Shown here piece by piece: positions 12,165 to 40,984 of a stretch of DNA of 43,046 nt. How positions within the stretch are numbered: position 1 is the stretch's first letter; each line of letters begins with the position of its first letter. Below the pieces are notes generated by a model that saw only the letters and a program-made list of their open reading frames with translations, ran no database searches and was not told where the DNA came from. The DNA lies in the IMG/VR virus record IMGVR_UViG_3300039203_000123, positions 1 to 43,046 of that record; one strand, given 5' to 3'. The translations under genes were made by a program, and so were the position numbers. This stretch comes from a virus.

Positions 12165-14936
12165 TTAGAGCTTCCGGATCGCCGTCTTGCACTCACCGTA
12201 GCTCGGGCCGTAGCCCGCCTCGTAGGCGAACGGCACGGGGAGCCAGGTAAACTTCTCAGCGACGCGCTCTTCCAGATATTTGTCCAGGAACGGCTTGACC
12301 AAGGCCCGGTTGGCTTTTGGCGCCGTGAACCCGATCGAGTCATGCACGGTGAAGCGCAGCTTGATGCCGATCTCGCTGGCGTGCTCGTCCATCTCGCAAA
12401 GTTGAGAGAGAACCAGATCGCTGCTCGTAGATTGGATAGGGAAGTTGATAGCCTCTCTGTAAGCTGCATTCTTTTGTTTGAACGAGAAGTGCGATAGCGG
12501 AAACCTCCTGATGCGACCAAAGCGCGTAGCCGTCGAGGCTTTGCTACTCACGTCGCCTTTGATGTTGAACATGTAGAACTTGATAATCGGGTAGCCGTCG
12601 AGGAACTTTTGAATATACCCTTCGCAATCTTCTAAAGTAACCTTGGCTCCTCCTTTTACCAGGTTCTCATGCAGTTTTGGGGCGCCTCCGCCGTAGATCG
12701 TGAGGAACACCATGCTCTTCGCCGTCTGCCGAAAGTTGTCCAGCATGTGGAATCTTTCGGGATCAGTCTTCTCGAATTGCTCGCGCTCTTGGATCTCGTC
12801 GTAGGTGAAGCCGAAAACTTTTGCGGCGACATCGGAGTGAATATTCAGACCGTCGTTTAGGGTCTTGATCAAGCCTTCGTCTTTGGCGTAGGCTGTCAAG
12901 ACCCGGATCTCGGCGCCAGAGTAGTCCGCGTTGTAGAAGTCTTCCGTCTCCGGGTCGTCAGGGATGAAGAGCTTTTTCATGCTCAGACCCAAGATGCCCT
13001 TGGCCGAAATATTCTGCATGTTCGGGTTGGACGACGAGAGCCGCCCGGTCTTCGTGTCGACCAGGTTGTAGCGGCCGTGGATCCGGCCGTCGCCAGCCGA
13101 CCCCACCCGGATCCCCGCCAGGAAGTTGTTCTTGGCAGAGAACGCCTTCCGGTAGATCCCCAGGGGCTTGATGACCGCGTGCTGGCCTGCCAGGGCCTTC
13201 AGCGAGTCTTTCCCGACGCTGATTCCGCCTTTCTTGGTCTTGCTCTCGATCTTGAGCCCGAGTTCTTCGGTCAAAACTTTGATAAGTTGTTTGGTCGAAG
13301 AAATTAGAAACTCGTGGCCGACCGCTGCGAAGATGTCTTTCTCCGAGATGTCCATGAGCTCCTGGAACTTGACCTCGAGCTCGGCCAGGTACTCCATGTT
13401 GACCCGGACGCCCTCGTGCTCCATCTTGCCAAGCACCCGAGCTGACGGCAGCATGACTCGCTTCATGGCGGTCATCATCCGGCCGTCTTCTTTGCGGATC
13501 TCCTCGACTTGCTGGAGCGAGATGCGGCGCGTGCAGTCGGCGTCGATAGCGGCGTAAAGCAACATATCTTCCGAGGGCAACAACTCGAAGTTAAAATTGG
13601 CGTTGTCTTCCTTTTCTTTCTCCGACGCCGTCTTGGCTGCTTTGATCTCGTCTTTCGCGCGTACAAGATCCGCTTTGTAGCACCCGATCGCTTTCGTGAT
13701 CCGAGCCTTCTCGTCCTTCTCGTCCTTGCCTTTGGCGCGCTTGATGGCGTTCCACATCTTGATCGTGCCGATAAGCTGCTTGTGCGCTTCTTTGGCGCTC
13801 TTGAGCCGGTCGGCGGCGTCCGTCTTATGGAACTGCTTCTTGATGTCTTTTTCGTAGTCGGCGAAGTCCGGCACCCGCTCTTCGACGATGGCTTTCAAAC
13901 CATAAAATCCTACTTTGTTTTCGTTGAGCAGGTACTCGCCGAACATCGAGTCCCATTGAATATTTTTGATCTTCAAGCCCATCGCGAGCTCGAGCACCTG
14001 GATATCGTACTTGGTGTTGTGGAGAACTTTAGGGTTCGGGCCTTCGAGAACTTGCTTCAGGAGCGGGATAATTTCCTGCCAGTCTCCCTGCTGATCCCGA
14101 TGGTTCATCAAGAACGAGCACGACTGTCCTTCGCCCCACGCCATCGAAAATGCGATGCACTTGAAGCCCGGTACCCAGGTCTCGAGACCCGTCGTTTCCG
14201 TGTCCATTGAGAGCAGGGTCTCGGCATTCAAATGGTTGTCGATCACATACTGGAGGATCGCTTTCGCTTCAGCGACCGACTTCCCGATCTTGTAATCTTT
14301 GGTGAGCTCCTCGATCGTCTTGGGGGCCGCAAGTGCCCCCAACCCAGCTTTAAAAGCTTTGTTCAGGTCGGCGACGAAAATACTGTACAGACCCATGTTC
14401 TCTTTGCGCAGGAGCGCTCCGGGATTGTAGGTCGGCACGCACAGCACTTCCCGGCCGTTGACTGTGACCGGGAAGATCTTCCCGCGCACGCTGTCAACGC
14501 TCCCCTGAATGCCAAAAGACTTTAGTGCCGCCCCTCCCATGGGGACGACGACCTTGCACTGGCTGACGTCGATCTGCCGATGGACGATCGACTGGCAGTG
14601 CTTGATCGTCTCCGTTTCTTTGCTCTCAACTACACACTGAGCAGCATGAATAAAGTATGGCCTAATATTGCTGTACGCCGGCTTGCTCGTGTAGACCTCG
14701 TCGAAGATGGCACGAAAGAACTGGCCGACCCCATCTCGGAACGCCACGAACTCGTTGTTGGCGATCTCGCTCTTCGGCGGGCCCAGGACGAACGCCACGT
14801 CGGAATGGGGTGAGCCATACCCGCCGCAGCGTCCGTCTGCCTCAAAAGACGGACACGTTTCGCAGTGCTTCGTCTTGCTCAACTGGAAAGTTTTACGAGG
14901 CGCTTCTACTGCGCTTTCTTCGGCTGCTGCTTGCAC
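12165..14936 (-). CDS. Family A DNA polymerase with N-terminal UDG-like Fe-S domain
   Basis: A 923-residue replicative polymerase; I choose GTG 14936 because GGGAGG lies 5 nt upstream, just after the primase gene ends. Residues about 20-200 resemble family 4 uracil-DNA glycosylases and keep a four-Cys set for an Fe-S cluster (C25-x2-C28, C101, C114), but the usual HPSALLR motif reads NPGALLR. The 3'-5' exonuclease follows, with DTETTG (Asp245), HNTKYD and YAAIDADCTR. The polymerase domain has motif A DYSGAEIRVL, motif B RQTAKSMVFLTIYG (with the Phe that discriminates against dideoxynucleotides) and motif C VHDS, where most relatives have VHDE. It synthesises phage DNA with proofreading. SPO1-type phage polymerases have a similar N-terminal fusion. 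Confidence 0.93.
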   Translation of the reverse strand: MQAAAEESAVEAPRKTFQLSKTKHCETCPSFEADGRCGGYGSPHSDVAFVLGPPKSEIANNEFVAFRDGVGQFFRAIFDEVYTSKPAYSNIRPYFIHAAQCVVESKETETIKHCQSIVHRQIDVSQCKVVVPMGGAALKSFGIQGSVDSVRGKIFPVTVNGREVLCVPTYNPGALLRKENMGLYSIFVADLNKAFKAGLGALAAPKTIEELTKDYKIGKSVAEAKAILQYVIDNHLNAETLLSMDTETTGLETWVPGFKCIAFSMAWGEGQSCSFLMNHRDQQGDWQEIIPLLKQVLEGPNPKVLHNTKYDIQVLELAMGLKIKNIQWDSMFGEYLLNENKVGFYGLKAIVEERVPDFADYEKDIKKQFHKTDAADRLKSAKEAHKQLIGTIKMWNAIKRAKGKDEKDEKARITKAIGCYKADLVRAKDEIKAAKTASEKEKEDNANFNFELLPSEDMLLYAAIDADCTRRISLQQVEEIRKEDGRMMTAMKRVMLPSARVLGKMEHEGVRVNMEYLAELEVKFQELMDISEKDIFAAVGHEFLISSTKQLIKVLTEELGLKIESKTKKGGISVGKDSLKALAGQHAVIKPLGIYRKAFSAKNNFLAGIRVGSAGDGRIHGRYNLVDTKTGRLSSSNPNMQNISAKGILGLSMKKLFIPDDPETEDFYNADYSGAEIRVLTAYAKDEGLIKTLNDGLNIHSDVAAKVFGFTYDEIQEREQFEKTDPERFHMLDNFRQTAKSMVFLTIYGGGAPKLHENLVKGGAKVTLEDCEGYIQKFLDGYPIIKFYMFNIKGDVSSKASTATRFGRIRRFPLSHFSFKQKNAAYREAINFPIQSTSSDLVLSQLCEMDEHASEIGIKLRFTVHDSIGFTAPKANRALVKPFLDKYLEERVAEKFTWLPVPFAYEAGYGPSYGECKTAIRKL

Positions 14937-14946
14937 GTTTACCTCC

Positions 14947-17900
14947 CTAGTTAGGACGGAGTTGGGACACCGAAGCGGTCGGCTTTGGAGCCGTACCATC
15001 CGAGCGGAACCGATTATTCTTGGACGCCTCTTGCTCGACGCGCGTACTGACATCAAAGACGGAGATATGCGTGTCTCGAACAGCCTCAGGAATTTCTGGA
15101 AGCCTATCAACAAGTGCGCTCACCTGCTCCTCGGAGAGTGCCATCGGATGGCGGTCACCGATGACTTTCAGCGAGACAGGGTCTTCTTTGCTGCGCGCGA
15201 TCGAAGTCCCACGCAAGACCCCCCCGACAGCCGTTTGCCAGATCACGAGCAGGTACCATTTTTCCCCGATGTCAGAGAGCTTCTCGCTGTAGAGATAGAC
15301 TCCTGATCCAGAGGCGTTTAACGCGTCCCGTGTAGTAGCTATGCGGGCATCGCGAAAAAACTGGGAGACCATGCGCTTCTGACGGTTATCCAACGTCCCG
15401 ACGTCGATGCTCGCGGTGAAGAGCAGCGCGTTGATAAGGCTCTCGTTGACGGTGAGCTTCGACAAAGTCTTGATGGCCTTGCTTTTGGCGACGACCGTCT
15501 TCTTCATCCAGCCGATCCAGTCGAGGCCAAAAGCGTGCATCGGGACTGCCAGACGCATGAGCGTGTCTTTGAAGCGCTGAATATTCGCAGCGCCTAAAAG
15601 CTCCGGGTGCTCCAGGCAATAGTTCTCGATAAAGCTCTCGCTCGCTTTGAGATCGGGAATAAATTGAAACATGTCGATGGAGATCTCTTCGCGAGTCTGA
15701 GCGATCCACTCTTTGGTGAACTTGTTCAAGATCAAAGTCTTAGGTGGGAGTCGGGCGTCGAGCCCCGACTTCAAGTCGGTCGTGTAAAAGCGCGTCATGT
15801 TCGCATCTGTAATATCCGGATCAATACCGGCCACCATCGACGAGAAAGAAAGTCGGTACATCTTCGCTTCGCCGCCCTGCGTGCCCTGCTGGTACTTGCC
15901 TTCACCCCCAGAAGAAGTCCGGAGGATCGTCAAAACTTCCTGCTGCTTTTCGGAGACGTATCTCCCCCCTTTTTGGTTGTCGAACTCGTCGATAATCAAA
16001 ATAAGCGAGCTGCCGTCCATGGACTGACGAATACCGGCTGGCGTCGTGTTGTCCACGAAGTGCGAGTGCTCGACCAGGTTGATTTCCGTCCCCTTGCCGC
16101 CGCCGATCGCCTCGGCATAGAGCGTCGACTTACCGCAACCACGCTCGTTGCTGGCGAGGAACTGGAAGTTTTGTTTGTAGATCGGCAAGATGGTCGCCGA
16201 CATGATGAACGACGCGTGCGCCCAGGTCTCCGTCTCCTGGCTCTCGAAGCGCCAACCTGTATCCAGGAAATCGACAATCTTGAGAAAGAGCGCTTTGGCG
16301 TCGAGCGGCGCCCGGCGTACCAAGTCTTCCAAGCAATTGATGCACTTTGACCACGCCGGTTTCGATGTATCGAACAGGTACTTCTCGAAGATTGGCGCCG
16401 CCAGCTCTTCCCAGACCGGCTTCTCCCCTTTGGTGAATTCACCCCGGTATACGCGTCGACCATTCACGATAAACGCGTTGTCCCGTCCCGAGCTCGTCGG
16501 CAGGTAGTGCATGCCCGCCGAATAGGTCTCCATCGACGTGACCTGTGGGAGCTTGCTCATGATGTCTTTGAACACCAGGTGCAAAATTCTCAGCAGGTCG
16601 TCCTCTTGGTTGACCAGAGAGCGCTCGATCGGGTCGCCTCTCTTGTCCGTGGAGAGCTTGATAAAATCAGGGATCGACAGCTCTTTCTTGACCCACTCGA
16701 CGTAGGTCCCGAGCGAGACGTTGAGCGACGCCTTGATATGGGCGTCCGAGCCCATGCGCATCTCGATCATCTCGTGCTTTTTCTTGTTCCACATCTTGAG
16801 CGGCATCGTGCTCTTGCTGGAATCAATCGCGATGAAGTCAAAGTTCTCGTAGAGCTTGGCCTTGACCTGCGTACAAAAGACGAGCTCCGCGCTCTCGCGT
16901 GCCATGAACTCGTTGGCGAGCTTTTCGGCCTGCTCGCCGCCGACGCCGAACTCCATGAGGGTGTCGGTGTTCCACTTGTTGACAACAGCCGCCTGGTGCT
17001 CGTCCCGGGTGTCGCCGACGCACGGAGCGTAGGAGAAAATCAAGCGGGCAATGGCTGCGTCGTCGCCGTCGATCCCCTGCTGGCGGATCTGCTTTTTGAT
17101 CTGTTCCTTGCACCAGAGCTCGGGCTTGATGTAGCGCTTTTCGAAGTCGTCGAGCTCGCGGTTGACAACGTCCCACCCGTGGATGCGCAGAGCCAAGTCC
17201 AAGTCGACTTTGGTCGACTCGGGGCCGGGGACTGCCAGGCAGTCGGGCCACACGAAAATCTTGTAGATGAAGCCTGGGCTCTCGATCATCAGCTCTTTGG
17301 TGTTGACCTCGCCGCCCTTATCCCAATCCCCCACGTAATTAATATATTTGATCCCGAAGTTCTTGAGCTCGGTGACGTTCCTGTTCGTGGCGCCGCCGTG
17401 CGCTAAAATAACTCGATCGAAGTTTCCCTGCTCGAACTGCTGGCACATGTACATGGCGGCATCGAACTCGCCCTCGACCAGCGTGACCGTGGTGGTGTTG
17501 CCGATGCCCGTCTTTTCGCCGTGGGCGCCCAGGTTGTTGTACATACCCAAGCCAAAGAAGCCTAAAAAGTCTTCTCTGGGGTCGGCGATCATGATGATAT
17601 TTTTGGTGTCCGACTCGCCAGGGCGGCGCAGCCGAAAGCGGCTCACGTCTTTGGGAGTCGCATTATAAATATACATGAGCGAGCCGTTGTAGAACGGGTC
17701 GGCGACCGCCTCCAGATACTTGAGCATCGCTGCGACGTCGTGCCCGTTGATCTCTTTGTTGCGCTTGGCGATCTCGCGGATTTGCATCTGGGTCGGCAAA
17801 ATACCAAAGGGTAGCGCGTGGACCCATTTGAGAACTTGCCGGCGCTCAAGCCACTCGAGAAGCTCTTTGGCGTACTCGTGCTCTGAGCCCTCGAGCGGCG

Positions 17901-20695: not shown

Positions 20696-21829
20696 ATGCT
20701 GATCGAAAGCTCACCTGTTATCTCTGAGTCTCCCACTCAATTTTTGAGCTTTCTAAGCAGCTCTAGTAAAGCCGATGCGCTTTTCTATACAACTGCTCCG
20801 GAGTTTGACGACAGCGTCAAAGAACTATTGAAAGACACAGGTGCCTCGCGAACCGTGGAGCCACCAGCAGCTCCCGTACAGAAGTATTCCCCGCCATCGG
20901 CGCAGCGAGGACTTGCCTCCTACTACGGAGACATCAGCAAGTTCAAACCGTTTTCGCGAGAAGAGGAGCGGAGGATATTTCGGGAATACGCGGTGGTCAA
21001 GAAGAGGATAAAGAAGCTGGAAAGACTGGCTCCTACGACTCCCGAGGTACGAAAGCTCAATCTCGACTTGATCAATCGTCGCAATCATGTCGTGCAGCAC
21101 AACCTGCGATTTGTCGTGAAGCTCGCGAAGACTTTTTGGATGGACGGGCGATCTGACAGTTTCGAGAACTTGATCTCAGCCGGCAACGTCGGCCTGATTC
21201 GCGCAGTCGATAAGTTCGACGTCAAACGCGGGACAAGATTTCTAAGCTACGCCGCCCACTGGATCGCACTTGAGATCCGATGCGAGCTCGCCAACTCGAA
21301 CCTGATTAAAGTGCCGGTGTGGTACCAAAAGACTCTTAAAAAACTTCTCGATTCCTACAAAGAGTTGATCAAGACGCAAGACATTATCACCCCACGCATC
21401 CTCGCCCGCCACGCCAGAGTCCCCATCAAGATTATCGCCAAGCTCAGTGACAACAGCCCGAAGATCACCTTGGAGCACATCCGTCCGACGAAGACTGACG
21501 TCGAGTTTGCCGATGGCACTCACAACGAGTCTCATGCCGAAAAGCCAATGGACGCGGAGACCAGCTTCTTCCAGCAATGCGCGCGCATCACGATCGAGAA
21601 CATGCTCGACCAAATGAAGAAGACCGGAACGTGTCGTCTTGGTGAAGGCGACGCGATCCGGTCAGTCTACGGTCTGGGTGAGGCAGCCGACGCTCAGAAT
21701 TTGCGACAGGTATCCAATGTCACAAACATCAGCTCGGAAAGAGTTCGGCAGTTGAGAGAGAAGGGTCTGAAGACGCTTCGAAAGAAGATGCGTCAGCAAG
21801 GCATTATGTCTACCGGAGACCTGCTCTAA
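20696..21829 (+). CDS. Phage-encoded sigma-70-family factor
   Basis: A 377-residue protein from ATG 20696; the ribosome site is weak (TGGG). Residues 1-75 are probably disordered; region 1.1 is absent. Region 1.2 is YYGDISKFKPFSREEERRIF. Region 2 is typical: VQHNLRFVVKLAKTFW (core-binding helix), then FENLISAGNVGLIRAVDKFD and RFLSYAAHWIALEIR (-10 recognition). A region 3 helix follows (VPVWYQKTLKKLLDSY). Region 4 ends with SSERVRQLREKGLKTLRKK, the helix-turn-helix for the -35 element. It would direct RNA polymerase, host or the phage-encoded enzyme, to phage promoters. It is the only plus-strand gene in a long minus-strand region and converges on the 21834-22124 gene. Confidence 0.95.
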   Translation: MLIESSPVISESPTQFLSFLSSSSKADALFYTTAPEFDDSVKELLKDTGASRTVEPPAAPVQKYSPPSAQRGLASYYGDISKFKPFSREEERRIFREYAVVKKRIKKLERLAPTTPEVRKLNLDLINRRNHVVQHNLRFVVKLAKTFWMDGRSDSFENLISAGNVGLIRAVDKFDVKRGTRFLSYAAHWIALEIRCELANSNLIKVPVWYQKTLKKLLDSYKELIKTQDIITPRILARHARVPIKIIAKLSDNSPKITLEHIRPTKTDVEFADGTHNESHAEKPMDAETSFFQQCARITIENMLDQMKKTGTCRLGEGDAIRSVYGLGEAADAQNLRQVSNVTNISSERVRQLREKGLKTLRKKMRQQGIMSTGDLL

Positions 21830-23351: not shown

Positions 23352-23978
23352 CTATAACGAAGAACGGCCAGGGTGCAGCGTCTCGAACAGCTTTGCCCCG
23401 CGCAGACCAATACGAAAGTACCTGGCATGAAGAGTCGTGTACTTTATCCCAGACAGGTCCGAGGCTTTTTTCAAGGTCATCCTCCTACCTAAGTAGTGGA
23501 CGTGAACGTTGGCTCTCGTGTTATTCGCCTGCTCTTCTTTCGAAGCCCAGCAAACATTGCTGGGCGCGTAGCCTTTCGAATTATTTTTCCTCTCCAATGA
23601 CGCACCTAAAAAGGGTGGCCTTCCTACGTCCTGAAGCCAATTCGAAAATTGGTGCCATCTCCAGCACACTTTTACCCCACGCCCACCGTAGTTTTTGTAG
23701 GATTTCGAGTTTGGGTTGTAGCACCTTTTAAGCATGCTAAACCAAACTTGATAAAGTTTAGAGCCGCTTTCTCCGTGAACGGTTCTGCTTTTTAATTCCT
23801 CTGTCCGTAGGCAACCACACGACTTAGAAGTACCAGACTTTAAACTATGGGAATCCACACTACGCAATTTTCCGCATACGCAGCGGCACTGCCATTTTCG
23901 TCTAGGACTATTTTTCTTGTCCGCACGCAGTACAGTCCATCTTCCAAATTTACGACCAGATAGGTCTATTTTGTTCAT
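23352..23978 (-). CDS. Homing-endonuclease-like protein (zinc/HNH type)
   Basis: A 208-residue protein from ATG 23978. The N-terminus LSGRKFGRWTVL, then WQCRCVCG and SGTSKSCGCLR, is the Cys-rich DNA-binding module that precedes HNH-like phage proteins. The core has YQVWFSMLKRCYNPNSKSY, NYGGRGVKVCWRW and SLERKNNSKGYAPSNVCWAS, the conserved 'R-N-G-Y-N-W' HNH-like nuclease signature. A C-terminal helix-turn-helix (MTLKKASDLSGIKYTTLHAR) would bind target DNA. It probably cuts DNA lacking the gene to copy itself. It splits the helicase-nuclease run and is more AT-rich than its neighbours, which fits recent mobility. Confidence 0.85.
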   Translation of the reverse strand: MNKIDLSGRKFGRWTVLRADKKNSPRRKWQCRCVCGKLRSVDSHSLKSGTSKSCGCLRTEELKSRTVHGESGSKLYQVWFSMLKRCYNPNSKSYKNYGGRGVKVCWRWHQFSNWLQDVGRPPFLGASLERKNNSKGYAPSNVCWASKEEQANNTRANVHVHYLGRRMTLKKASDLSGIKYTTLHARYFRIGLRGAKLFETLHPGRSSL

Positions 23979-29124: not shown

Positions 29125-29718
29125 TTATCCTCCGAAGCTGGCGAGCAGCTCTTTTAGTTTTAAAAAATTAGGGCGCCAAGCAATGGCTTCTTCGAGAGAG
29201 TAGTTAAAACGGGCATACTCTCTAAAGTGCTCAAGGGCTAATTGGTCGTAGACTTTCGCGGCGATTTCTTTATCGGGAAACGGGCCATAGCGCAGGAAAG
29301 CTCCGTCCACCCTTATGGTAGAGAAATAGTTCCCGAGGCTATCCTTCGTAACTCCCTTCAACCCGAGTTTATTGTTCGAATGCACTTTCCTGTTTTTTGA
29401 ATTTTCTTTGCGAGTGCATACGCGCAGATTGTCCCTTCTGTTATTAAAAGAGTCGCCGTCTTTATGGTCGACTTCCATGTCTTCTGCGGGGCGCATGATG
29501 AATCGGTTCAAGCCGATCCTTTGCTTTTTTTGACCGGCTATTTTACTAGGAATGTCTACCCCCACGAAAAACCAGTCGGGTCTCGTCGGCGAAGTGCTTA
29601 TTACGAGGTACCCGTTCGCATCTTGGACCTTGCGGTAGTCGACTTCGTCGAGAACCACCGTGCCCTTCTTATGATGGCTAAAAACAACCCCCTCTCGGAT
29701 CTCGACTTTGCAAGTCAC
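29125..29718 (-). CDS. HNH homing endonuclease with AP2 domain, copy 1
   Basis: The start is uncertain: GTG 29718 gives 197 residues, TTG 29730 gives 201; neither has a strong ribosome site. The HNH core is FIMRPAEDMEVDHKDGDSFN followed by NRRDNLRVCT. Next comes an AP2/ERF-type DNA-binding domain (LKGVTKDSLGNYFSTIRVDG ... GPFPDKEIAAKVYDQLAL). AP2-HNH proteins are mobile endonucleases found in phage genomes. The gene is inserted exactly before the ATG of the zinc-ribbon gene. The lower GC content relative to neighbours fits acquisition. Confidence 0.88.
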   Translation of the reverse strand: MTCKVEIREGVVFSHHKKGTVVLDEVDYRKVQDANGYLVISTSPTRPDWFFVGVDIPSKIAGQKKQRIGLNRFIMRPAEDMEVDHKDGDSFNNRRDNLRVCTRKENSKNRKVHSNNKLGLKGVTKDSLGNYFSTIRVDGAFLRYGPFPDKEIAAKVYDQLALEHFREYARFNYSLEEAIAWRPNFLKLKELLASFGG

Positions 29719-29822
29719 AACTCGCCCCAAAAGGAAAGGGTTTTCGAATGCTTTTTAGAAAACTACACTGAAAAAAGTTGAATAGCGCGTGTTAACATAC
29801 AAAAAACACCTAATTCAAGTGG

Positions 29823-30731: not shown

Positions 30732-31400
30732 TTAGTGCGAAGAGGCCCAAATTTGTGCGCAAACGACGGCGTCGTGTTCCAGATGAAAAGTACCAAGTGT
30801 ACGCAGCTTACCCTCAACGCGGAACTTTACTTTCCATACTTCTCCATGCGAGTCCCAATAGCAGCCTTTTTGGTTTGATTTTTTAGCGGCCGACTCTTTA
30901 ACTGCTTGGACTGGGATAATCGAGGCGTCTACGTTGTTAAGATAGGCGTACTCTTTGTGGTGTTTTTTAGCAGCGATATCGTATGCACGTGCAGCATGGA
31001 GCTCGCTTTCGTACATACCAAGATGGTGTATTCTTTTATCTACTTTAATACGAGCCAGCCATTTTTTACTGTGCTCGTGCCAGCTAACCCCTTTGAACTC
31101 AGATGTAGCAATTTGGGCAATGCGATTTTGTTGATTGCCTTGGCGTGTACATACGCGAAGGTTGCAGCGCCGATTATCCAAGCCATTATGGTTAATATGG
31201 TCGACTTGAAGGTGTTTGGGTGGGTGCAGTAGAAGGCGGTGTGCCGAGATCATAGTCTTGCGCCCCTTCTTCCGGACGTTCGTTAACGCATACCAGTTTG
31301 TTCCTTGCTGTCGGGCGCACCAAGAATGCTGCTCCAGCTCCGCGAGATCTTGATCGTCACATAGCATCTCTTTTCCTTGGGTTAGCTCAATTTTCGCCAT
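30732..31400 (-). CDS. HNH homing endonuclease with AP2 domain, copy 2
   Basis: A 222-residue protein; ATG 31400 is preferred because GGAG lies 5 nt upstream (the upstream GTG at 31406 overlaps that site). The HNH core is HRLLLHPPKHLQVDHINHNG followed by LDNRRCNLRVCT. An AP2 domain follows (FKGVSWHEHSKKWLARIKVD ... HLGMYESELHAARAYDIAA), and a second AP2-like unit lies at the C-terminus (KGCYWDSHGEVWKVKFRVEG ... LGTFHLEHDA). It is the last minus-strand gene before the plus-strand portal operon, an inserted mobile gene. Confidence 0.9.
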   Translation of the reverse strand: MAKIELTQGKEMLCDDQDLAELEQHSWCARQQGTNWYALTNVRKKGRKTMISAHRLLLHPPKHLQVDHINHNGLDNRRCNLRVCTRQGNQQNRIAQIATSEFKGVSWHEHSKKWLARIKVDKRIHHLGMYESELHAARAYDIAAKKHHKEYAYLNNVDASIIPVQAVKESAAKKSNQKGCYWDSHGEVWKVKFRVEGKLRTLGTFHLEHDAVVCAQIWASSH

Positions 31401-31424
31401 AAGCACTCCATCAGTAAGAAATGG

Positions 31425-31453
31425 TTGGCCTTTTCGGGTCTTCGACCTATAAT
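31425..31453 (+). promoter_or_regulatory. Sigma-70-type promoter for the portal-polymerase operon
   Basis: TTGGCC (31425-31430), a 17-nt spacer and a perfect TATAAT (31448-31453) lie 37 bp upstream of the portal start, in the 89-bp divergent gap. It is the best consensus promoter in the window and would drive the whole plus-strand structural/polymerase operon. Confidence 0.65.
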
Positions 31454-31489: not shown

Positions 31490-33298
31490 GTGTCGCTCAA
31501 TCCAAATTCATCCGGCGCTTTTAACCTCGGTAACGTATATCCCAATGCATTCTTCGATTATCTTTCGCGATTGATGCCGAGGCGGCTAAAGCTCTTATTT
31601 CGTTGGCTAGAATACCTCTACGCCAACTGCGGTCAAGTATTTTCCGTCATCAAAAAATTCTCTGAGTATTCAGTTACCTCGCTGACCTACGACACTGTTG
31701 ATAAAGACCAAAAAGACAAGCTCACCGAGATTATGGACAAGCACGTCCACATCAAGGCGGTCGATATCCAAATCGGTATCGACTACTACATGTACGGCAA
31801 CTCGCTGACCTCTCTTTTCAAGCCTTTTACGCGCTGGCTTATCTGCAAAAAATGCAATGCCAAGCACAATGGACTCAACTACCCATACGAGTGGATGAAC
31901 CAAAAGTTCGAGTTCAAGATTAAGTGCAGCGCCTGTGGCCGGCACGACATCGCCCGCGTCGAGCACGAGCCACTGCGTGACCCGAAGAAGCTGCGCGTCA
32001 TCCGGTGGGACCCGAAAAATATCGACATCAACAACAACCCGGTCACCGGAGACTGCGAATATTATTATAATATTCCAGACGACATCAAAGCGAAGATCCG
32101 CTCGAAGAAGCCCGACAAGTTCCTGATTAATACGATGCCGTGGGAAATCATCGAGACGATCAAGCAGAAGAGGACTTTTAAGTTTCGCGAGGGCCAGGTC
32201 TACCACATGAAGTGCCCGTCGCCGGCGGGCATCAACCAGGAATGGGGCTTCCCGAGCTTGCTCGGTTGTATGAAGCCCTTTTTCTACACGGCGATCTTGC
32301 GCAAGGCCAACGAAGCCATCGCGCTTGAACGCCTGGTACCCTGGAGAATTTTGTACCCGCAGGCCAGCACCGGGAACAACGATCCGGCGGCCTACGTCAC
32401 ACTATCCAAGTTCCGCAACGAGCTCACCGACGCCGTCCGTAAGTGGCGTCGTGACCCGAACATGGTCAAGCTCTCGCCGATTCCGATCGGCATGACCCAG
32501 GTCGGTGGCGAGGGTAAAAACCTCATGGTCACCAACGAGATCCAGCAGGCCGAAGAAGTGATCGTCACTTCTATGGGAGTGCCGAAAGAATTTATTTACG
32601 GTGGCCTGACCCATGCCGGTGGCTCGGTCACGCTGCGCATGCTCGAGAACTTGATCTTCACATACACTGATCAGCTCACCGAGTGTAACCAATGGATCGT
32701 TGACCAGGTCTGCCTTTTCGCCGGCCTAAAACCGGTCAAAGTGGGGATGGTCGACTTCAAGCTCGTCGACGACATCCAGCAGAAGCAACTTGTTGGACAG
32801 CTTTTCCAGGCGAAGTCCGTCTCCAAAACTACGTTCTTGAAGTCGCTCGACATCGACGCCGAGGTCGAGAGAAAGCAGATGATCGAGGACGCCGTCGCCG
32901 ACGCCCGGATGCAGATGGAGATCGACTCCAAGATCAAGGCGATGCAGAACGAGCTCGCGAAGAAAGTTGACCAGCAAGTCGAGGGCAACCCCCTCCAGTA
33001 CGATCCGCAAGCCGTCATGCAGGTCGCCATGCAGGAAGCTCAGACGCAGGCGCAGATGCCAGAAGACCAGCGCAAAGCCCGCATGGAGCAGATCGCTGCC
33101 CAAGACCCCGTCCTCGAGGCGCTCGTCGAGAAGATGGTCACCCAGGTCCACAACCAGCAAAAACGCCAAGGCGCCCAGGTACAAAAACCCGGTGCCCCCG
33201 CACAGTCTCCACCGACGGGCGGTGGCGATGCGTCTTTTACCGTTCAACCGGGCCAGTCGGGCGGCGGATCGCCTAGCACGAAAATGGCTGGAGGCTAA
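31490..33298 (+). CDS. Portal protein
   Basis: A 602-residue protein from GTG 31490 (AAGGG 8 nt upstream). The order of features fits portal proteins: an N-terminal helix-rich wing, conserved strands around GINQEWGFPSLLGCMKPFFY, and LERLVPWRILYPQ. These lead into a stem and crown region (VTSMGVPKEFIYGGLTHAGG, then SVTLRMLENLIFTYTDQL). An inserted zinc ribbon (CKKCNAK ... CSACG) lies near residues 120-155. The C-terminal 120 residues are Gln/Met/Ala-rich and repetitive, ending in a flexible Gly/Pro/Ser tail. Twelve copies would form the DNA-entry vertex. It heads the operon that includes the phage RNA polymerase. Confidence 0.85.
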   Translation: MSLNPNSSGAFNLGNVYPNAFFDYLSRLMPRRLKLLFRWLEYLYANCGQVFSVIKKFSEYSVTSLTYDTVDKDQKDKLTEIMDKHVHIKAVDIQIGIDYYMYGNSLTSLFKPFTRWLICKKCNAKHNGLNYPYEWMNQKFEFKIKCSACGRHDIARVEHEPLRDPKKLRVIRWDPKNIDINNNPVTGDCEYYYNIPDDIKAKIRSKKPDKFLINTMPWEIIETIKQKRTFKFREGQVYHMKCPSPAGINQEWGFPSLLGCMKPFFYTAILRKANEAIALERLVPWRILYPQASTGNNDPAAYVTLSKFRNELTDAVRKWRRDPNMVKLSPIPIGMTQVGGEGKNLMVTNEIQQAEEVIVTSMGVPKEFIYGGLTHAGGSVTLRMLENLIFTYTDQLTECNQWIVDQVCLFAGLKPVKVGMVDFKLVDDIQQKQLVGQLFQAKSVSKTTFLKSLDIDAEVERKQMIEDAVADARMQMEIDSKIKAMQNELAKKVDQQVEGNPLQYDPQAVMQVAMQEAQTQAQMPEDQRKARMEQIAAQDPVLEALVEKMVTQVHNQQKRQGAQVQKPGAPAQSPPTGGGDASFTVQPGQSGGGSPSTKMAGG

Positions 33299-33300
33299 CC

Positions 33301-33813
33301 ATGCAGATTCTGGGCGAAGGCAAGGATATTCACGAGCAGATGCGCAAGTCGATCGGCCAAGAGCCGCCGGAAGAGTCACACGACTTTTTCAAGTCGATCA
33401 GCCCGCAGGATCCGCACACCAAGCGGCCGACCCCGAAGTTCATCGCGCCGAAATTCAACTTCAAGATCATCTACCTGGCAGGCTATGGCCACACGCCGGA
33501 GATGGAAGTCTCCTACATCGACATCATGAACAAAATCGTCTCGGGCGTGTACACCAACTCCACTGAAGAGACGTATCATGACAAGGATGGCAACCTGAAG
33601 GTGCTCCTACGTTGGTGCGAATGGCCTGACGGCGGCAACCCAAACCAGCCACCTAAGGACGAAGAGTTCGACAGGGTCGTCAGCGAGACCGACAAAGAGA
33701 AGTCCAAAAAAGAAAAGAAAGAAAAGAAGAAGGCCGGGAAAGCTGAATCCGAAGCTGAGCGCGCCTCCAGCGACGAGCCGTCCCCCGCGAGCGATCCCCA
33801 AGTCAATTTCTGA
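33301..33813 (+). CDS. Hypothetical virion protein with Lys/Glu-rich tail
   Basis: A 170-residue protein from ATG 33301 with GGAGG. The N-terminal 45 residues look flexible, then a mixed domain (FNFKIIYLAGYGHTPEMEVS; NLKVLLRWCEWPDGG) is followed by a highly charged low-complexity tail (KEKSKKEKKEKKKAGKAE and a Ser/Pro/Asp end). It sits 3 bp after the portal gene and 8 bp before the RNA polymerase gene. It may be an adaptor or scaffold in the virion, but its fold is unrecognised. Confidence 0.6.
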   Translation: MQILGEGKDIHEQMRKSIGQEPPEESHDFFKSISPQDPHTKRPTPKFIAPKFNFKIIYLAGYGHTPEMEVSYIDIMNKIVSGVYTNSTEETYHDKDGNLKVLLRWCEWPDGGNPNQPPKDEEFDRVVSETDKEKSKKEKKEKKKAGKAESEAERASSDEPSPASDPQVNF

Positions 33814-33821
33814 GGCGTAGC

Positions 33822-36800
33822 ATGGCCGTTACTGCTCTCTTCACGCACCCGAAAGAGAAACGCGAGCTCATTCACCAAAAAGCGGTGGACGGCTTGACCT
33901 CTCTTTTCCCGATCTCAACTGCGAAGTACGACATCCACGTGGAGGACGTCCAGGTCAACCCGAAGGACTACTCGACAGCCGAGTCCAAGCGGGCTCTCCT
34001 CGAAGGAAAATCTCTCACCGAGCCCGTGACTGGGACTGTCGTCATGAAAGACAAGTCGGGGAAAGTAATCGACCGGGTGAAAAACTACCGGCTGATGAGC
34101 CTCCCGTTTTTCACAGACCAGCATACTTTTATCGTAAATGGAAATAGTTACTCCGTCGGTAATCAATTGCGCACGAAGCCAGGAATCTACACGCGCGTTC
34201 GTCGCAATGAAGTCCCTGAAGTGGCCTTCAACCTATCGAAGGGTTCCAATTTCAAGATCACCATGGATCCGGTTAGTTCGGTTTTCAAGCTTGAGCACGG
34301 CTCGAGTGGTATCCCACTCTACCCGATTTTGCGGTCTCTCGGCGTCGCCGACAAAGATCTGGAAGCGCAGTGGGGAAAAGAGATCCTGACCAAAAACTCA
34401 GGGCTCTCAAAATCCGCTTACGAAACCGCAATAGCCAAGCTCTATGAAAAAGTAATACCTCCAAAAGATCGCAGTAGTGAACATGATGTCAACGAGAAAA
34501 TAAACAAGCTGCGTGGGTACTTCGAAAAAACTCAAGTTGACCCCGAAACTACGAAGATGACTCTGGGGAAAGGATATAGCTCCGTACAGGGCGAGACGAT
34601 CCTGACGGCATCCGGTAAGCTTCTGAAGGTGTTTAAGGATGAGATTGAGCATGATGATCGGGATTCACTCGAATTTCAAAAGATCCACAGCGTTGATGAC
34701 TTCGTTAAAGAGCGCCTGCAAAAAGGCGGCCCGGAAGTCATCCGCAAAATAAAATTCAAGGCCGACGCCAAAAAAGACGTCTCGGGCCTGAAGGACATCC
34801 TGCCCCCGAGCCCGTTCTCCCCGACAATCAAGAGTCTAATCACGCAGTTCACGCTGTCGCGGACGCCCGACCAGATCAACCCTCTGGAAATCATGGACGC
34901 CGCCATGAAGATCACCCGCATGGGTGAAGGCGGTATCGGCAGCTTGCGCGCGGTCCCCGAAGAGACGCGGGACCTGCACGTGACGCATTTAGGAGTCATT
35001 GATCCTGTAAAAACCACCGACTCGAGCTCGATCGGGGTCGACCTGCGGGCGTCCCTGTCGATGGCGAAAGATAGCGCTGGCAATATTTTTGCGTCTGTGC
35101 GGGACCCGCGTAAGGGAACTCAGGCTAACCCGGCTGGGCCAATCTCGTATGTCGACACCAAGATTATTCGTCAAAAAGTTTTGGCATTCCCTAACCAGGA
35201 ATTAAAAGGCCAGGTCCAGGTCGTCAAAGACGGCCGGATTCAAACCGTTGATGCCAAGCACGTCGACTACCAGATCCCCCACAGCCAATCGATGTTCGGC
35301 CCCTCGACAAGCCTGATCCCCTTCATCGACAACATGCAGGGCAACCGGGCGCTGATGGGCGCCAAGTATATTACCCAAGCGCTCCCACTCAAAGACCGGG
35401 AAGAGCCTCTGGTCCAAGTCTCCACGCCCAAGGGCAGCCAGTACGAAACGATGAATGGTCTGCTCGGCAGCCAGATTATCAAGCGCGCCCCTGTCGCTGG
35501 CACGGTCACGAAAGTCGACCAAGACTTTATTCACATGAAGGGCACGGACGGCTCGGCCCACAAGATCTCCTATACGAACGACTTCCCGCTCAATTCGAAG
35601 ACCTACCTGCACGAAGACGTGCTCGTGAAGGCAGGGGATAAAGTAAAAAAAGACCACCAGCTCACCGAGTCCAACTTCACCCGCAACGGCAACGTCGCCT
35701 TGGGGCGCAATGCCTACGTGGCCTACATGCCGTACCACGGCGAGAACTCCAACGACGCCGTCGTGATCTCGGAGGGCGCTGCGAAGTCCTTCACGTCGAT
35801 GCACATGTACAAGAAGATCCTGGAGATCGACGCCGATATTATTTTAGACAAACAGCTCTATCTAAATAATTTCCCAAATAAGCTTACAAGCTCGCAGACC
35901 GGAAAACTCGACGACAAAGGCATCGCCGTCAAGGGCCAGGTCTTCAACTACGGCGACCCAGTGATCTTGGCCCTGCGCAAGTCGCAGCCTTCCGAGACGG
36001 ACATCATGCTAGGGCGTTTTCATAAGTCTCTGGTGAGCAAATACAGAGACAACAGCCAGCTTTGGGACCACGAGAACCCTGGGACGATCATCGACGTCGT
36101 CGTCATGGGAGGCCGCATTGCGCTTACGCTCAAGATGGAAGCACCTATGGTCGTTGGCGACAAGCTCGCCGGCTCCTACGGGAATAAGGCCGTCGTATCG
36201 CGCATTATACCTGACCATCAAATGCCTCACGATGCCACTGGTCGTCCTCTCGATATTCTTATTGCTTCTACGGGAGTTGTGTCACGAATTAATCCAGGAC
36301 AACTTCTGGAGACAGCGCTTGGCAAAGTTGCCAAGAAGACTGGCCAGAAAATAGTCGTCGAGAATTTCTCGGGCGAGGACAAACTAAAGCTTACCAAGGC
36401 GGTGCTGAAGCAACATGGCGTCCCCGACAAAGAGACGATTACGGACCCTATTACGGGCCGGCAAATTCCGGGTATTTTTACGGGCTATCAGCATGTGTAT
36501 AAGCTCTTCAAAAGCACTGACACCAACTTCGGAGCGCGTGGCACCGGAAGTTACGACGTTAACGAGCAGCCAACTCGAGGCGGTGAGGAAGGCGCGAAAC
36601 GCCTCGGCGGCATGGAAGTCAACGCACTGCTAGCTCACGGCGCCACCAACTACCTGCGCGAAGCCATGACCCTCAAAGGTCAGAAGAACGTCGAGTGGTG
36701 GAATGCTTTTAAGACGGGCGCCCCGCTACCCGTACCAAAGAGATCGTTCGCGGTGGACAAGCTCACCGGGATGCTCGCCGGCGCCGGGATCAAAGTCGAA

Positions 36801-38198
36801 CACAAAGCTGGCCAGGCGTACCTAAAGCCGCTAACCGACCGAGACATCAAAGAGATGTCCCACGGGACAATTACAGAAGCATCTGTACTCCGGAAAAAAG
36901 ATCTTAAGCCTGAAATAGGGGGTTTGTTTGACCCCCTCAAGACGGGCGGGATCGAGGGCGAGAAGTGGTCGGATATCAAGCTCTCAGAGCCCATAGTTAA
37001 GCCACTTTTTATGAAGCCAACGGCGAGCCTGTTGGGCATGAGCGAGACTGGCCTGACTAAAACTTTTCTTGAAAAGGGCGGCGCGCATGTGCTCGGGCTG
37101 CTCAAAGCCCTCGACACCAAGAAGATGAAAAAAGAGACGCAAGAGGAAATCAAAAACAGCTCGGGGCAAAAACTCGATGTGGCTGTCAAACGTCTCAAAT
37201 TTCTTGGCGGTCTGGAACGAGCCGGACTTGAGCCGGCTGAGGCCTATATGGGGCATCATCTGGCAGTTCTTCCTCCGAAGATGCGCCCTGTGGTACCCGG
37301 TCCCAACAATCAGCTCCTGGTGGCAGATTCAAATCATCTCTACCGTGACGTGCTTCTTGCTGATCAAAAACTACAAGAAATGAAGTCGGTCGGGATCACC
37401 CACGCCAATGACCTGATGCCGATGCGCCAGGCGGTGTGGGATGCCGTGTCGGCCGTGTCTGGACTCTCAGATCCTGCGTCTTACAAGCTCAGGCAGCAGG
37501 GCAAGAAAGGCTTCGTAAAGCAGATCGCTGGGCCTCGGCCCTCAGAAGGCTATTTTCAAGAGAAGATCTACGGCAGGCCACAAGATCTCTCCGGTCGTGG
37601 GACAATCGCTCCAGATCCAAATTTGAAAATGAACGAGATCGGGCTTCCAGAAGATACAGCGTGGGGCATCTACAAGCCGTTTATTATTAAGCGCTTAGTG
37701 CAGATGGGTTTACCAGCCTTACAGGCGGCCGACCATGCTGAAAAGAAAACGGACATGGCCAGGCAGGCGCTCGAGGTCGAGACCAAGGAGCGCCCCGTTG
37801 TATTTAATCGAGCCCCCTCGCTGTGGCGCTATAGTGTTCTATCCGCTTTCCCAAAACTTATTCCGGGGAAGACCATTCGGCTTAGTCCGTTTGTGGAGAC
37901 TCCCCTCAACGCGGACTACGACGGAGACGCTATTCAGCTTCACGTTCCGGTTCAACCACAGGCTGTTGCAGATGCCAAGCTGATGACGCTCGATCACATG
38001 CTCTTCTCGGATAAGAAGAGAAACGACCTGATCCCGAAGCCAGAGATGGAGTCGGTGATCGGTCTTTTCGAGTCCACGCGCTTAGGCTCGACGGGCGTGA
38101 AGAAAAAATACAAGACTCAAGCCGACGCGATGCAGGCCTATTATCGTGGTGAGCTCAAAGCGAACGATGATGTTGAGATCGGTACTCAAAAGTCCTAG
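33822..38198 (+). CDS. RNA polymerase beta / beta' N-terminal fusion
   Basis: A 1458-residue chain from ATG 33822 with GAGG upstream. Beta features in order: HTFIVNGNSYSVGNQLRTKPG (about 100-125), GDKLAGSYGNKAVVSR (about 780), INPGQLLETALG, GMEVNALLAHGATNYLREA, and a C-terminal PKRSFAVDKLTGMLAGAGIK that aligns with the bacterial beta end. Beta' then continues without a break: ITEASVLRKKDLKPEIGGLF, VLPPKMRPVVPG, a clamp coiled coil (ADQKLQEMKS), YGRPQDLSGRGTI, VVFNRAPSLWRYS and the catalytic NADYDGD (about 1364). The usual beta' zinc-binding domain 1 is replaced by a short loop. It ends at the position near E. coli beta' residue 525. With the 39200-40984 gene it forms a complete catalytic core; no alpha subunit is seen. 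Confidence 0.95.
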   Translation: MAVTALFTHPKEKRELIHQKAVDGLTSLFPISTAKYDIHVEDVQVNPKDYSTAESKRALLEGKSLTEPVTGTVVMKDKSGKVIDRVKNYRLMSLPFFTDQHTFIVNGNSYSVGNQLRTKPGIYTRVRRNEVPEVAFNLSKGSNFKITMDPVSSVFKLEHGSSGIPLYPILRSLGVADKDLEAQWGKEILTKNSGLSKSAYETAIAKLYEKVIPPKDRSSEHDVNEKINKLRGYFEKTQVDPETTKMTLGKGYSSVQGETILTASGKLLKVFKDEIEHDDRDSLEFQKIHSVDDFVKERLQKGGPEVIRKIKFKADAKKDVSGLKDILPPSPFSPTIKSLITQFTLSRTPDQINPLEIMDAAMKITRMGEGGIGSLRAVPEETRDLHVTHLGVIDPVKTTDSSSIGVDLRASLSMAKDSAGNIFASVRDPRKGTQANPAGPISYVDTKIIRQKVLAFPNQELKGQVQVVKDGRIQTVDAKHVDYQIPHSQSMFGPSTSLIPFIDNMQGNRALMGAKYITQALPLKDREEPLVQVSTPKGSQYETMNGLLGSQIIKRAPVAGTVTKVDQDFIHMKGTDGSAHKISYTNDFPLNSKTYLHEDVLVKAGDKVKKDHQLTESNFTRNGNVALGRNAYVAYMPYHGENSNDAVVISEGAAKSFTSMHMYKKILEIDADIILDKQLYLNNFPNKLTSSQTGKLDDKGIAVKGQVFNYGDPVILALRKSQPSETDIMLGRFHKSLVSKYRDNSQLWDHENPGTIIDVVVMGGRIALTLKMEAPMVVGDKLAGSYGNKAVVSRIIPDHQMPHDATGRPLDILIASTGVVSRINPGQLLETALGKVAKKTGQKIVVENFSGEDKLKLTKAVLKQHGVPDKETITDPITGRQIPGIFTGYQHVYKLFKSTDTNFGARGTGSYDVNEQPTRGGEEGAKRLGGMEVNALLAHGATNYLREAMTLKGQKNVEWWNAFKTGAPLPVPKRSFAVDKLTGMLAGAGIKVEHKAGQAYLKPLTDRDIKEMSHGTITEASVLRKKDLKPEIGGLFDPLKTGGIEGEKWSDIKLSEPIVKPLFMKPTASLLGMSETGLTKTFLEKGGAHVLGLLKALDTKKMKKETQEEIKNSSGQKLDVAVKRLKFLGGLERAGLEPAEAYMGHHLAVLPPKMRPVVPGPNNQLLVADSNHLYRDVLLADQKLQEMKSVGITHANDLMPMRQAVWDAVSAVSGLSDPASYKLRQQGKKGFVKQIAGPRPSEGYFQEKIYGRPQDLSGRGTIAPDPNLKMNEIGLPEDTAWGIYKPFIIKRLVQMGLPALQAADHAEKKTDMARQALEVETKERPVVFNRAPSLWRYSVLSAFPKLIPGKTIRLSPFVETPLNADYDGDAIQLHVPVQPQAVADAKLMTLDHMLFSDKKRNDLIPKPEMESVIGLFESTRLGSTGVKKKYKTQADAMQAYYRGELKANDDVEIGTQKS

Positions 38199-39203: not shown

Positions 39204-40984
39204 TGTTCGTCCACCACTTGGTCAACGAGGGCATCCCGCCGGAATATCACCTCACGGGTATTCTGGATAAGAAGTCTTTGACCAAGCACCTGACGCGCAT
39301 CGCCAAAGAAAAGCCCGAGCTCTTCCCGGATATTGTCCAGAACGTGAAAAAAGTTGGCGACATGATGGCCACTTTTGAAGGCGTGTCTGTGGGTCTCGAC
39401 GACATCACGCCGGACTATGCAGCTCGGGACAAATTAATTGGTGACGCCCGGCATGATATCGGCAAGCTCAAAGACGATAAAGCGATCGTCAACCGATTGC
39501 TCCAAGCCCAGACTGCCGGCCTCGAACTCGGGACCAAGCACAAGGGTTCTTTGCAAAGGCAAGTTGAATCCGGCTCCCGTGGTAAGCCTGGGCAGTTTTT
39601 GAAGACGGTCTTTTCTCCTGTTGTTGTGAAGGGCCACGGGGATATCCCGTTGCCCTATTTAATTTCTAAAAGCTATTCCGAGGGCCTGTCGCCATCCGAG
39701 TTCTGGCTCACCGCCGGCGAGTCCCGTAGAGAGTCGGCGCAAACTCAGCTTGCCACGGCGCTCCCCGGCGACAGCTCGAAAGTGATCACGAACGTTTTAA
39801 ACAACGCCATGATCACCCGCCCCGACTGCGGGACCGACAACGGCCTCGAGTACAGCGTCGACGACTCCCATATTTTAGACCGTTACGAGGCAGGCTCGAA
39901 CGAGCTCGTCACCGACCAGGTGGTCCGGGCTCTTCATAAGAAGGGCACCAAGACCATCAAGCTGCGCTCGCCTATGACCTGTCTCGATCATCCGGGCGTT
40001 TGCCAGAAGTGCTGGGGCCACAACAACCAAGGTCAGATGCATACGATCGGCGTCAACGTCGGCATGCGTTCGGCGCAGATGCTATCAGAACCCCTTACGC
40101 AGATGGTCCTCTCGTCGAAGCACGGTGGCCAGATGGCGCGCTCCGACGAAGCTAAGCTGGTTGGCACTCTCGGCTTTCGGCAGTTGGTAGGGATCCCAGA
40201 AATTTTCAAAGACCAAGCTACTCTGGCGGAGCATGCAGGGACAGTCTCGTCGATCGAAAAATCCCCCCAGGGCGGCGCCGTCGTACGCATCGGCGATACA
40301 GCACACTATGTGCCGCCCAAGCGCGAAGTCACGGTCAAGCTCGGACAAAAAGTTGTCCCAGGATTCGCGCTCTCGGACGGTATCAAAAACCCGAAGCAAG
40401 TGGTGGAGCTCCAGGGCTTGGGCGCCGGCCGCAAATATATGTCAGGGACTATTTATAATATTTATAAAGACAGCGGCGTTGACATCGACAAGCGCCATGT
40501 GGAGCTTTTGGTCCGCAACAGCCTAAATCACGTCGTCGTGACCGAGGGTGATGATGCCGGTCTTTTTATCAAGGGCGACACTGTCCCCTATAATTCCATC
40601 AGAGCCCACCTTGCTGACGGCGCTACATCACACCAGCTTGGGGTGGGAATTATCGGAAAGCGTCTTGGAGACGAGTATCTTCACTATGCCGCAGGAACAA
40701 CTATCACCCCGGATATTCACGACGCCCTGCACCAAGCAGGGCTCAAGTCCGTCCTCCTCACCAACAAGACGGCCACCTACGACCCGATCATGAAGCCGCT
40801 CGAGCAGGTGCCGCTCATGGGCCAAGACTGGGTGTCCCGTCTTGCGCACCGGCGCATTAAAGACACGCTCATTCGAGGAGCGTCCGAGAACTGGGGATCA
40901 GACACCCACGGGACTTCTCCGTACGCTGCTATGCTTTATGGCACCCAAGACTTTGGCAAAGAAACCGGTAAGGGGCATTATTGA
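39200..40984 (+). CDS. RNA polymerase beta' C-terminal subunit
   Basis: A 594-residue chain from ATG 39200. It begins near E. coli beta' residue 600 (FVHHLVNEGIPPEY, then FEGVSVGLDDITPDY). It carries the bridge-helix region (GESRRESAQTQLATALPGDS), the second zinc site (PDCGTDNG; TCLDHPGVCQKCWGHN, four Cys) and the trigger-loop region (EPLTQMVLSSKHGG). There the catalytic His is kept, but bacterial M-R of the MRTFH stretch is L-S. The C-terminus aligns with the beta' jaw and later domains (ASENWGSDTHGTSP, AAMLYGT). It supplies the moving active-site parts that the fusion chain lacks. It is coupled to the preceding small gene by ATGA and to the next by TTGA. Confidence 0.95.
   Translation: MMFVHHLVNEGIPPEYHLTGILDKKSLTKHLTRIAKEKPELFPDIVQNVKKVGDMMATFEGVSVGLDDITPDYAARDKLIGDARHDIGKLKDDKAIVNRLLQAQTAGLELGTKHKGSLQRQVESGSRGKPGQFLKTVFSPVVVKGHGDIPLPYLISKSYSEGLSPSEFWLTAGESRRESAQTQLATALPGDSSKVITNVLNNAMITRPDCGTDNGLEYSVDDSHILDRYEAGSNELVTDQVVRALHKKGTKTIKLRSPMTCLDHPGVCQKCWGHNNQGQMHTIGVNVGMRSAQMLSEPLTQMVLSSKHGGQMARSDEAKLVGTLGFRQLVGIPEIFKDQATLAEHAGTVSSIEKSPQGGAVVRIGDTAHYVPPKREVTVKLGQKVVPGFALSDGIKNPKQVVELQGLGAGRKYMSGTIYNIYKDSGVDIDKRHVELLVRNSLNHVVVTEGDDAGLFIKGDTVPYNSIRAHLADGATSHQLGVGIIGKRLGDEYLHYAAGTTITPDIHDALHQAGLKSVLLTNKTATYDPIMKPLEQVPLMGQDWVSRLAHRRIKDTLIRGASENWGSDTHGTSPYAAMLYGTQDFGKETGKGHY

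Follow-up and report, generated by a model that had tools for sequence, protein, structure and literature searches.

The polymerases of phages and bacteria closest to the one described here differ in how the beta and beta' subunits are divided between chains. The virion and non-virion polymerases of phiKZ and AR9 are multi-chain enzymes without alpha or omega in which beta' is split after the catalytic barrel; their beta subunit is split too and is not joined to beta', and these phages encode no recognizable sigma (PMC7598289). In the single-chain RNA polymerases of crAss-like phages, YonO, and P23-45, one polypeptide holds the two catalytic barrels. Some of these are virion enzymes (PMC10770324), and the crAss polymerase is so diverged that beta and beta' COG profiles miss it (PMC7481178). 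The multi-subunit RNAP-encoding Caudovirales (mReC), for which 97 contigs have been published, are metagenomic tailed phages whose polymerase can be aligned to those of cells yet branches apart from them and keeps NADxDGD (Weinheimer and Aylward 2020, PMC7481178). In that paper, beta and beta' are two subunits, and the only fusion mentioned is that of crAssphage. A natural in-frame beta-beta' fusion is found in Helicobacter pylori, as the "bifunctional RNA polymerase subunit RpoBC" (PMC4820699). The H. pylori polymerase has alpha and omega. In cyanobacteria and plastids, beta' is divided into RpoC1 and RpoC2, alongside an unfused beta and an alpha subunit. A divergent viral RNA polymerase near mReC has been mentioned without a fusion being stated (PMC10159854), and we found no description of a beta-beta' fusion in the phage lineage analyzed below in the open-access literature searched (subscription papers and preprints were outside its scope).

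Here we analyzed a 43,046-nucleotide stretch of DNA (the window, a 43-kb fragment of an IMG/VR virus record) that contains a phage RNA polymerase locus (Table 1). An ATG-initiated frame of 1458 amino acids, open throughout, encodes a protein (chain 1) made up of the whole of beta followed immediately by the initial ∼550 residues of beta', a stretch that takes in NADYDGD. By Pfam analysis, the beta domains Rpb2_3, Rpb2_6 (E 5.5e-49), and Rpb2_7 (below cut-off) are followed in the same frame by the beta' domains Rpb1_1 (below cut-off) and Rpb1_2 (E 1.3e-22). Searches of solved structures matched residues 19-990 to almost the whole of cyanobacterial beta (8gzg_C; up to residue 973 with 8syi_C) and residues 1086-1450 to beta' residues 171-536 of 6wvj. 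In a joint alignment of the window protein with concatenated bacterial beta and beta' (Salmonella, Enterococcus), Arash, and single-chain relatives, the end of Salmonella beta aligns at window residue 994 and beta' picks up within ∼10 residues, with ∼20 beta' N-terminal residues lost at the junction. The zinc domain 1 cysteines of Escherichia coli beta' (C70, C72, C85, and C88) align to a gap in the window, and an equally short loop lies at this place in relatives in which the stretch is readable. A preliminary description, made from sequence alone, had claimed that one 1458-residue frame runs to the beta C terminus and then through beta' to NADYDGD, that the normal gene boundary is abolished, and that beta' zinc domain 1 is missing with only a short loop left; each of these claims held, and the alignment places both subunits in the frame.

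Table 1. Positions of the polymerase genes, their internal features, and neighboring features in the window.
Feature	Position	Strand	Basis
Sigma-70-type factor, region 2 (region 4 weak); positional orthologue of Arash gp196	20696..21829	+	Sigma70_r2 E 3.6e-11
Sigma-70-like promoter match TTGGCC-17-TATAAT, best of 20-39 kb, just before portal/polymerase genes	31425..31453	+	consensus match only
Portal protein gene, directly upstream of polymerase	31490..33298	+	32% identity to Arash gp204 portal, E 1.5e-95
170-aa ORF separating the portal gene from chain 1, positioned like Arash gp205	33301..33813	+	ORF list, position
Chain 1, phage RNA polymerase, complete beta and beta' N-terminal part	33822..38198	+	Pfam, AlphaFold
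Beta moiety, residues 1-994	33822..36803	+	alignment with Salmonella and Enterococcus beta
Catalytic lysines K781, K789 (E. coli K1065, K1073)	36162-36164, 36186-36188	+	alignment
Beta/beta' junction, ∼10 residues in place of gene boundary	36804..36830	+	joint alignment
Beta' N-terminal moiety, residues 1003-1458, ending after catalytic double-psi barrel	36828..38195	+	phmmer to 6wvj beta', E 3.9e-46
GGLFDPLKTGGIEGEKWSDIKLSEPI, short loop in place of bacterial beta' zinc domain 1	36918..36995	+	zinc-1 cysteines in gap
NADYDGD catalytic Mg motif	37908..37928	+	D460/D462/D464 equivalents conserved
Small ORF between chains 1 and 2, 103 aa	38222..38533	+	no family match
Small ORF between chains 1 and 2, 143 aa	38533..38964	+	no family match
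Chain 2, beta' C-terminal part, 594 aa	39200..40984	+	Pfam Rpb1_5 E 9.1e-19
Bridge helix on chain 2	39692-39799	+	structure model
Trigger-loop helices on chain 2	40058-40192	+	structure model

To the preliminary description we add that the rest of beta' is encoded by a separate downstream gene (chain 2). Its product starts within ∼6-15 residues of where cyanobacterial RpoC2 begins and keeps all four cysteines of zinc site 2 (C210, C261, C268, and C271). Structure prediction, which had been proposed as a check, was run on chain 1 residues 261-1458 (mean pLDDT 84.1, pTM 0.70) and on chain 2 (pLDDT 86.1), and the models match beta and beta' structures. The beta part of chain 1 gave a Z score of 39.9 to 9dvs_C, with ∼24-30% identity to bacterial-type beta in structure-based alignments; this comparison with the PDB mainly probed beta, and the identity of the beta' part of chain 1 is sequence-based. 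The chain 2 model, which contains a 36-residue bridge helix and trigger-loop helices, gave a Z score of 35.4 to cyanobacterial beta' (9dvs_F). The catalytic residues are retained across the two chains (NADYDGD, K781, K789, and a conserved trigger-loop histidine), and each of the beta lysines is present in 96 of 96 phage rows. Unlike bacteria, the window enzyme has K at beta H1237 and S at beta' R933. Positions of the rifampicin pocket are also altered, with R, A, K, and T at E. coli Q513, H526, R529, and S531, and insensitivity to rifampicin is therefore predicted, an inference from sequence with no assay behind it. In a BFVD search, the named top matches were mostly giant-virus RNA polymerase subunits. 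No Rfam RNA was found in the window.

The beta-beta' junction is also carried by cultured phages, namely Salmonella phage Arash and Vibrio phages D69, D148, and D181. These phages share the two-chain layout (gp206 and gp216 in Arash; OQ632216; PMC10585845), the upstream portal, and collinear neighbors with the window, and their genes are annotated merely as "beta" or hypothetical, so that the fusion goes unremarked. Identity between the window and the Arash-type phages is ∼36% for chain 1 and 31-32% for chain 2, the in-frame junction of Arash and D69 is as in the window, and Arash has AADYDGD where the window has NADYDGD. Among uncultivated viruses, an alignment query retrieved 167 IMG/VR relatives when built on the fused protein and 523 when built on beta only; a single-protein scan of IMG/VR with the window protein had returned no matches. 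Beta and beta' lie in one frame in the best 80 loci of each list (153 distinct contigs), and in 83 or more contigs a single chain of about 2,060-2,170 residues comprises beta and the entire beta'. The census ranked by the fused query could favor fusions, but its repeat ranked by beta alone again gave only fusions. Both censuses cover the best-scoring relatives, and ∼440 lower-ranked matches of the 523 on the beta-only list lie outside the inspected set. Phages Carin-5 and YerA41 have separate beta and beta' genes (in the order beta' then beta) and fall outside the fused clade on long branches; RHph_Y65 and Vibrio 1.031.O contain beta' with no Rpb2_6 match. Many "phage" matches in the homologue search look like host rpoB/rpoC contigs, and these were used solely as bacterial references. 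The preliminary description had called such a fusion unusual in a phage, and this must be corrected: for the best-scoring relatives inspected, the fusion is the rule in a large phage lineage and not an oddity of the window contig.

The same description had inferred an alpha-less enzyme, and profile searches of relatives support this. Neither alpha (PF01193, PF01000) nor omega (PF01192) gave a match above cut-off in ∼20 large relatives, including the complete Arash genome, in searches whose controls were positive; the records searched were 137-224 kb each, and the window itself is only a fragment. What is shown here is absence by search, which makes an alpha-less enzyme likely; a profile search could miss an alpha, a host alpha could be borrowed, and assembly without alpha is inferred, not shown. 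A sigma factor is encoded by the window, and sigma region 2 was found in 15 of the 20 relative records searched. The window sigma matches the Arash gp196 frame (blastp E 1.7e-13, collinear), which is unnamed in the text of PMC10585845, and not the virion sigma gp10.

Terminase and portal are both present in the window, and in 123 of 146 loci a portal gene lies ≤3 kb upstream of the polymerase and in the same orientation. The window and Arash are collinear for nuclease, sigma, helicase, portal, and then both polymerase genes. In the published virion proteomics of Arash, the highest spectrum count belongs to gp206 (3516), with 1210 for gp216, 467 for sigma gp10, and 877 for the portal (PMC10585845). 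When computed per residue from these counts, the values are 2.3 for gp206, 2.0 for gp216, 1.5 for the portal, and 4.3 for the capsid; such counts reflect copy number only roughly.

The history of this architecture was analyzed in trees rooted on three bacteria only, without archaea or eukaryotes, in which the deep branches are long. The phage fusions group together in one clade (SH-aLRT 100), within which the rows with a split beta' form a single clade (SH-aLRT 99; a second tree, which included more single-chain rows (70), gave 95). Because the split rows are one clade within the fusions, the single-chain rows lie outside it on both trees and would need two changes if derived, and the outgroup bacterial beta' is unsplit, the simplest history is that adjacent beta and beta' genes were fused and that one fission followed. 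We consider this order likely, resting as it does on parsimony and a deep, long-branched tree. What is unusual about the window subgroup is then the second step, the re-cutting of beta' after the catalytic domain, as many relatives keep one chain. The fission site in the window lineage is a position also split in cyanobacteria and in phiKZ phages. Inteins and a group I intron occur in the polymerase gene of relatives (the D181 gene is broken by a group I intron that carries a homing endonuclease), and the gene is therefore a target of mobile elements. By inference, such elements might have caused the beta' fission; intron mobility has been discussed for jumbo phages as well (PMC7598289).

Other readings of these data were considered. 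An assembly or frameshift error could in principle have fused two genes, and the window is a single metagenomic contig without read data. The in-frame junction is, however, shared by cultured phages and by 153 independent contigs, so a join artefact, which the preliminary description had named as grounds for its own refutation, is in practice excluded for the family and can all but be dismissed. It could also be argued that the two-chain form is ancestral and that the single-chain relatives were re-fused, given that phiKZ-type enzymes have the same split site and that the deep branches of the tree are long. This split-first reading is improbable in view of the unsplit beta' of the bacterial outgroup, the monophyly of the split rows, and the two changes that single-chain rows require on both trees.

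The remaining alternatives concern how the enzyme functions. A hybrid enzyme, in which the fused protein works with host alpha and/or host sigma, would be consistent with the rather bacterial-like beta and with the sigma-70-like promoter match that precedes the operon. We doubt this reading, since most of these phages carry a sigma gene of their own, phiKZ enzymes set a precedent for a polymerase without alpha, and the covalent link would be inferred to reduce the need for an assembly platform. Alternatively, the enzyme may be produced once infection is under way, to serve middle or late genes, and its presence in Arash particles may reflect carry-over from lysed cells, a possibility named by the authors of that study, who also detected ribonucleotide reductase (PMC10585845); separate non-virion enzymes do exist in phiKZ phages. 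Against this, gp206 ranks first in spectra and is at the level of structural proteins per residue, and the portal linkage is deep. In addition, each relative searched that had any Rpb2_6 match had only one, and therefore there is no recognizable second copy to be the virion form. A purely non-virion role thus seems unlikely.

The reading that we favor is a virion-packaged, sigma-dependent, alpha-less RNA polymerase, which is likely even though no experiment has been performed on this phage. In an ancestral phage, neighboring beta and beta' genes would have been fused to give a single chain, and beta' would have been re-split, in a loop after the catalytic barrel, in the one descendant lineage to which the window phage belongs. 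Chain 1 (beta and the beta' N-terminal part) and chain 2 (the beta' C-terminal part) would together form a two-chain core. The sequences of these chains, their layout, and their conservation are shown; that the covalent beta-beta' link plausibly stands in for the alpha-dimer scaffold, so that the core would assemble from two chains without alpha or omega, is inferred. The polymerase may be produced late, together with the portal, then be packaged into virions and enter the cell with the injected DNA; peptides in Arash virions are published, and injection is an inference. Early transcription would then start with the phage sigma, whose gene is shown and whose early role and partnership with this enzyme are inferred. 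It is possible that the enzyme serves late transcription instead. A bolder, joint claim is that a widespread phage lineage has a near-complete cellular-type polymerase as one ∼2,060-2,170-residue chain, with fusion replacing the alpha scaffold, sigma-dependent initiation kept, the enzyme packaged in virions, and beta' re-cut in one branch at the cyanobacterial/phiKZ site; taken as a whole, we would argue as readily against this claim as for it.

This polymerase links the single-chain phage RNA polymerases, the split phiKZ enzymes, and cellular enzymes, and it suggests an order of events, fusion and then fission. It also offers a natural test of the roles of alpha and omega, as a recognizably bacterial-type enzyme with a sigma that seemingly needs neither, in one or two chains. 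With a cultured member, Arash, these ideas are testable now.

When compared with known systems, the window meets the membership test for the Arash type (a beta-beta' N-terminal frame with a separate beta' C-terminal gene, an upstream portal, and collinear sigma and helicase). It does not meet the criterion for a bacterial core (separate beta and beta' genes plus alpha and omega). Helicobacter pylori RpoBC, which was outside the tree comparison, differs in being a bacterial enzyme with an unsplit beta', and cyanobacterial and plastid enzymes resemble the window in the place at which chain 2 begins. The contrast with phiKZ-type split enzymes drawn in the preliminary description held (PMC7598289). 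Of the phiKZ-type criteria, a beta' split after the barrel is met, as is the absence of alpha and omega (on relatives); a split beta and the lack of a recognizable sigma are not met, since the window has a whole, fused beta and encodes sigma, as do 15 of 20 records. Unlike the crAss and YonO enzymes, it has near-complete bacterial-type beta and beta' that are recognized by Pfam, and the criterion of non-recognition is not met. The mReC criterion, a Caudoviricetes polymerase clade apart from cellular ones together with phage hallmark genes, is met (apart from three bacteria, SH-aLRT 100). The mReC capsid family PF07068 had no match in 20 relatives, but the controls gave none either, and the Arash capsid matches Phage_capsid PF05065 weakly. 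The window polymerase probably falls within mReC, although no comparison with published mReC sequences was made. The polymerase is inferred to work like the phiKZ virion and crAss-type single-chain enzymes while being a member of neither group, since its beta is unbroken, a sigma gene accompanies it, and it is recognized by standard profiles. No account of its fused and re-split architecture turned up in the open-access papers searched, though the class of enzyme was already known.

Polymerase genes of several related phages are interrupted by intein-like or intron insertions. In four of the related loci (L025 (8950-14844), L021, L023, and L027), the fused polymerase, in which beta is joined to beta', carries an intein-like insert immediately after the catalytic NADYDGD motif, and the insert of L025 contains a LAGLIDADG domain. 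Intein-like inserts were also found at other beta sites (loci L031, L034, L058, L081, L082, and L084), and one with a LAGLIDADG domain is present in the separate beta' C-terminal chain of locus L032 (14257-17346). The polymerase gene of the cultured Vibrio phage D181 contains a group I intron (L004 7503-7783; Rfam E 1.6e-26) with a homing endonuclease, and this interrupted gene is annotated as separate hypothetical proteins. An insert of ∼150 residues that is not an intein occurs at a single beta site (model position ∼585) in L039, L041, L051, L052, L068, and others, all of them loci of one subgroup.

Among the database records, INPHARED OR846602, OR844998, and similar entries are named as phages and are apparently host chromosome contigs with rpoB and rpoC.

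The cultured Salmonella phage Arash encodes two sigma factors, gp10 and gp196 (entry, Arash locus L177 11892-12596). The published virion list includes gp10 (PMC10585845); gp196, the counterpart of the window sigma factor, is not mentioned in the text of that paper.

A zinc-ribbon-like insert is found in 108 of the 130 family portals. In the window, the portal bearing it adjoins a polymerase that has lost one zinc domain.

Additional features encoded in the window
Feature	Position	Strand	Remarks
Portal with zinc-ribbon-like CxxC...CxxC insert	31490-33298	+	Insert at residues ∼118-151
Family A DNA polymerase with N-terminal uracil-DNA glycosylase domain	12165-15113	-	Single frame
HNH endonuclease genes (n = 3)	23352-23978, 29125-29730, 30732-31406	-	Near sigma, helicase, and portal genes

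Whereas the window DNA polymerase and uracil-DNA glycosylase share one frame, the DNA polymerase of Arash is in pieces and its uracil DNA glycosylase is encoded by its own gene.
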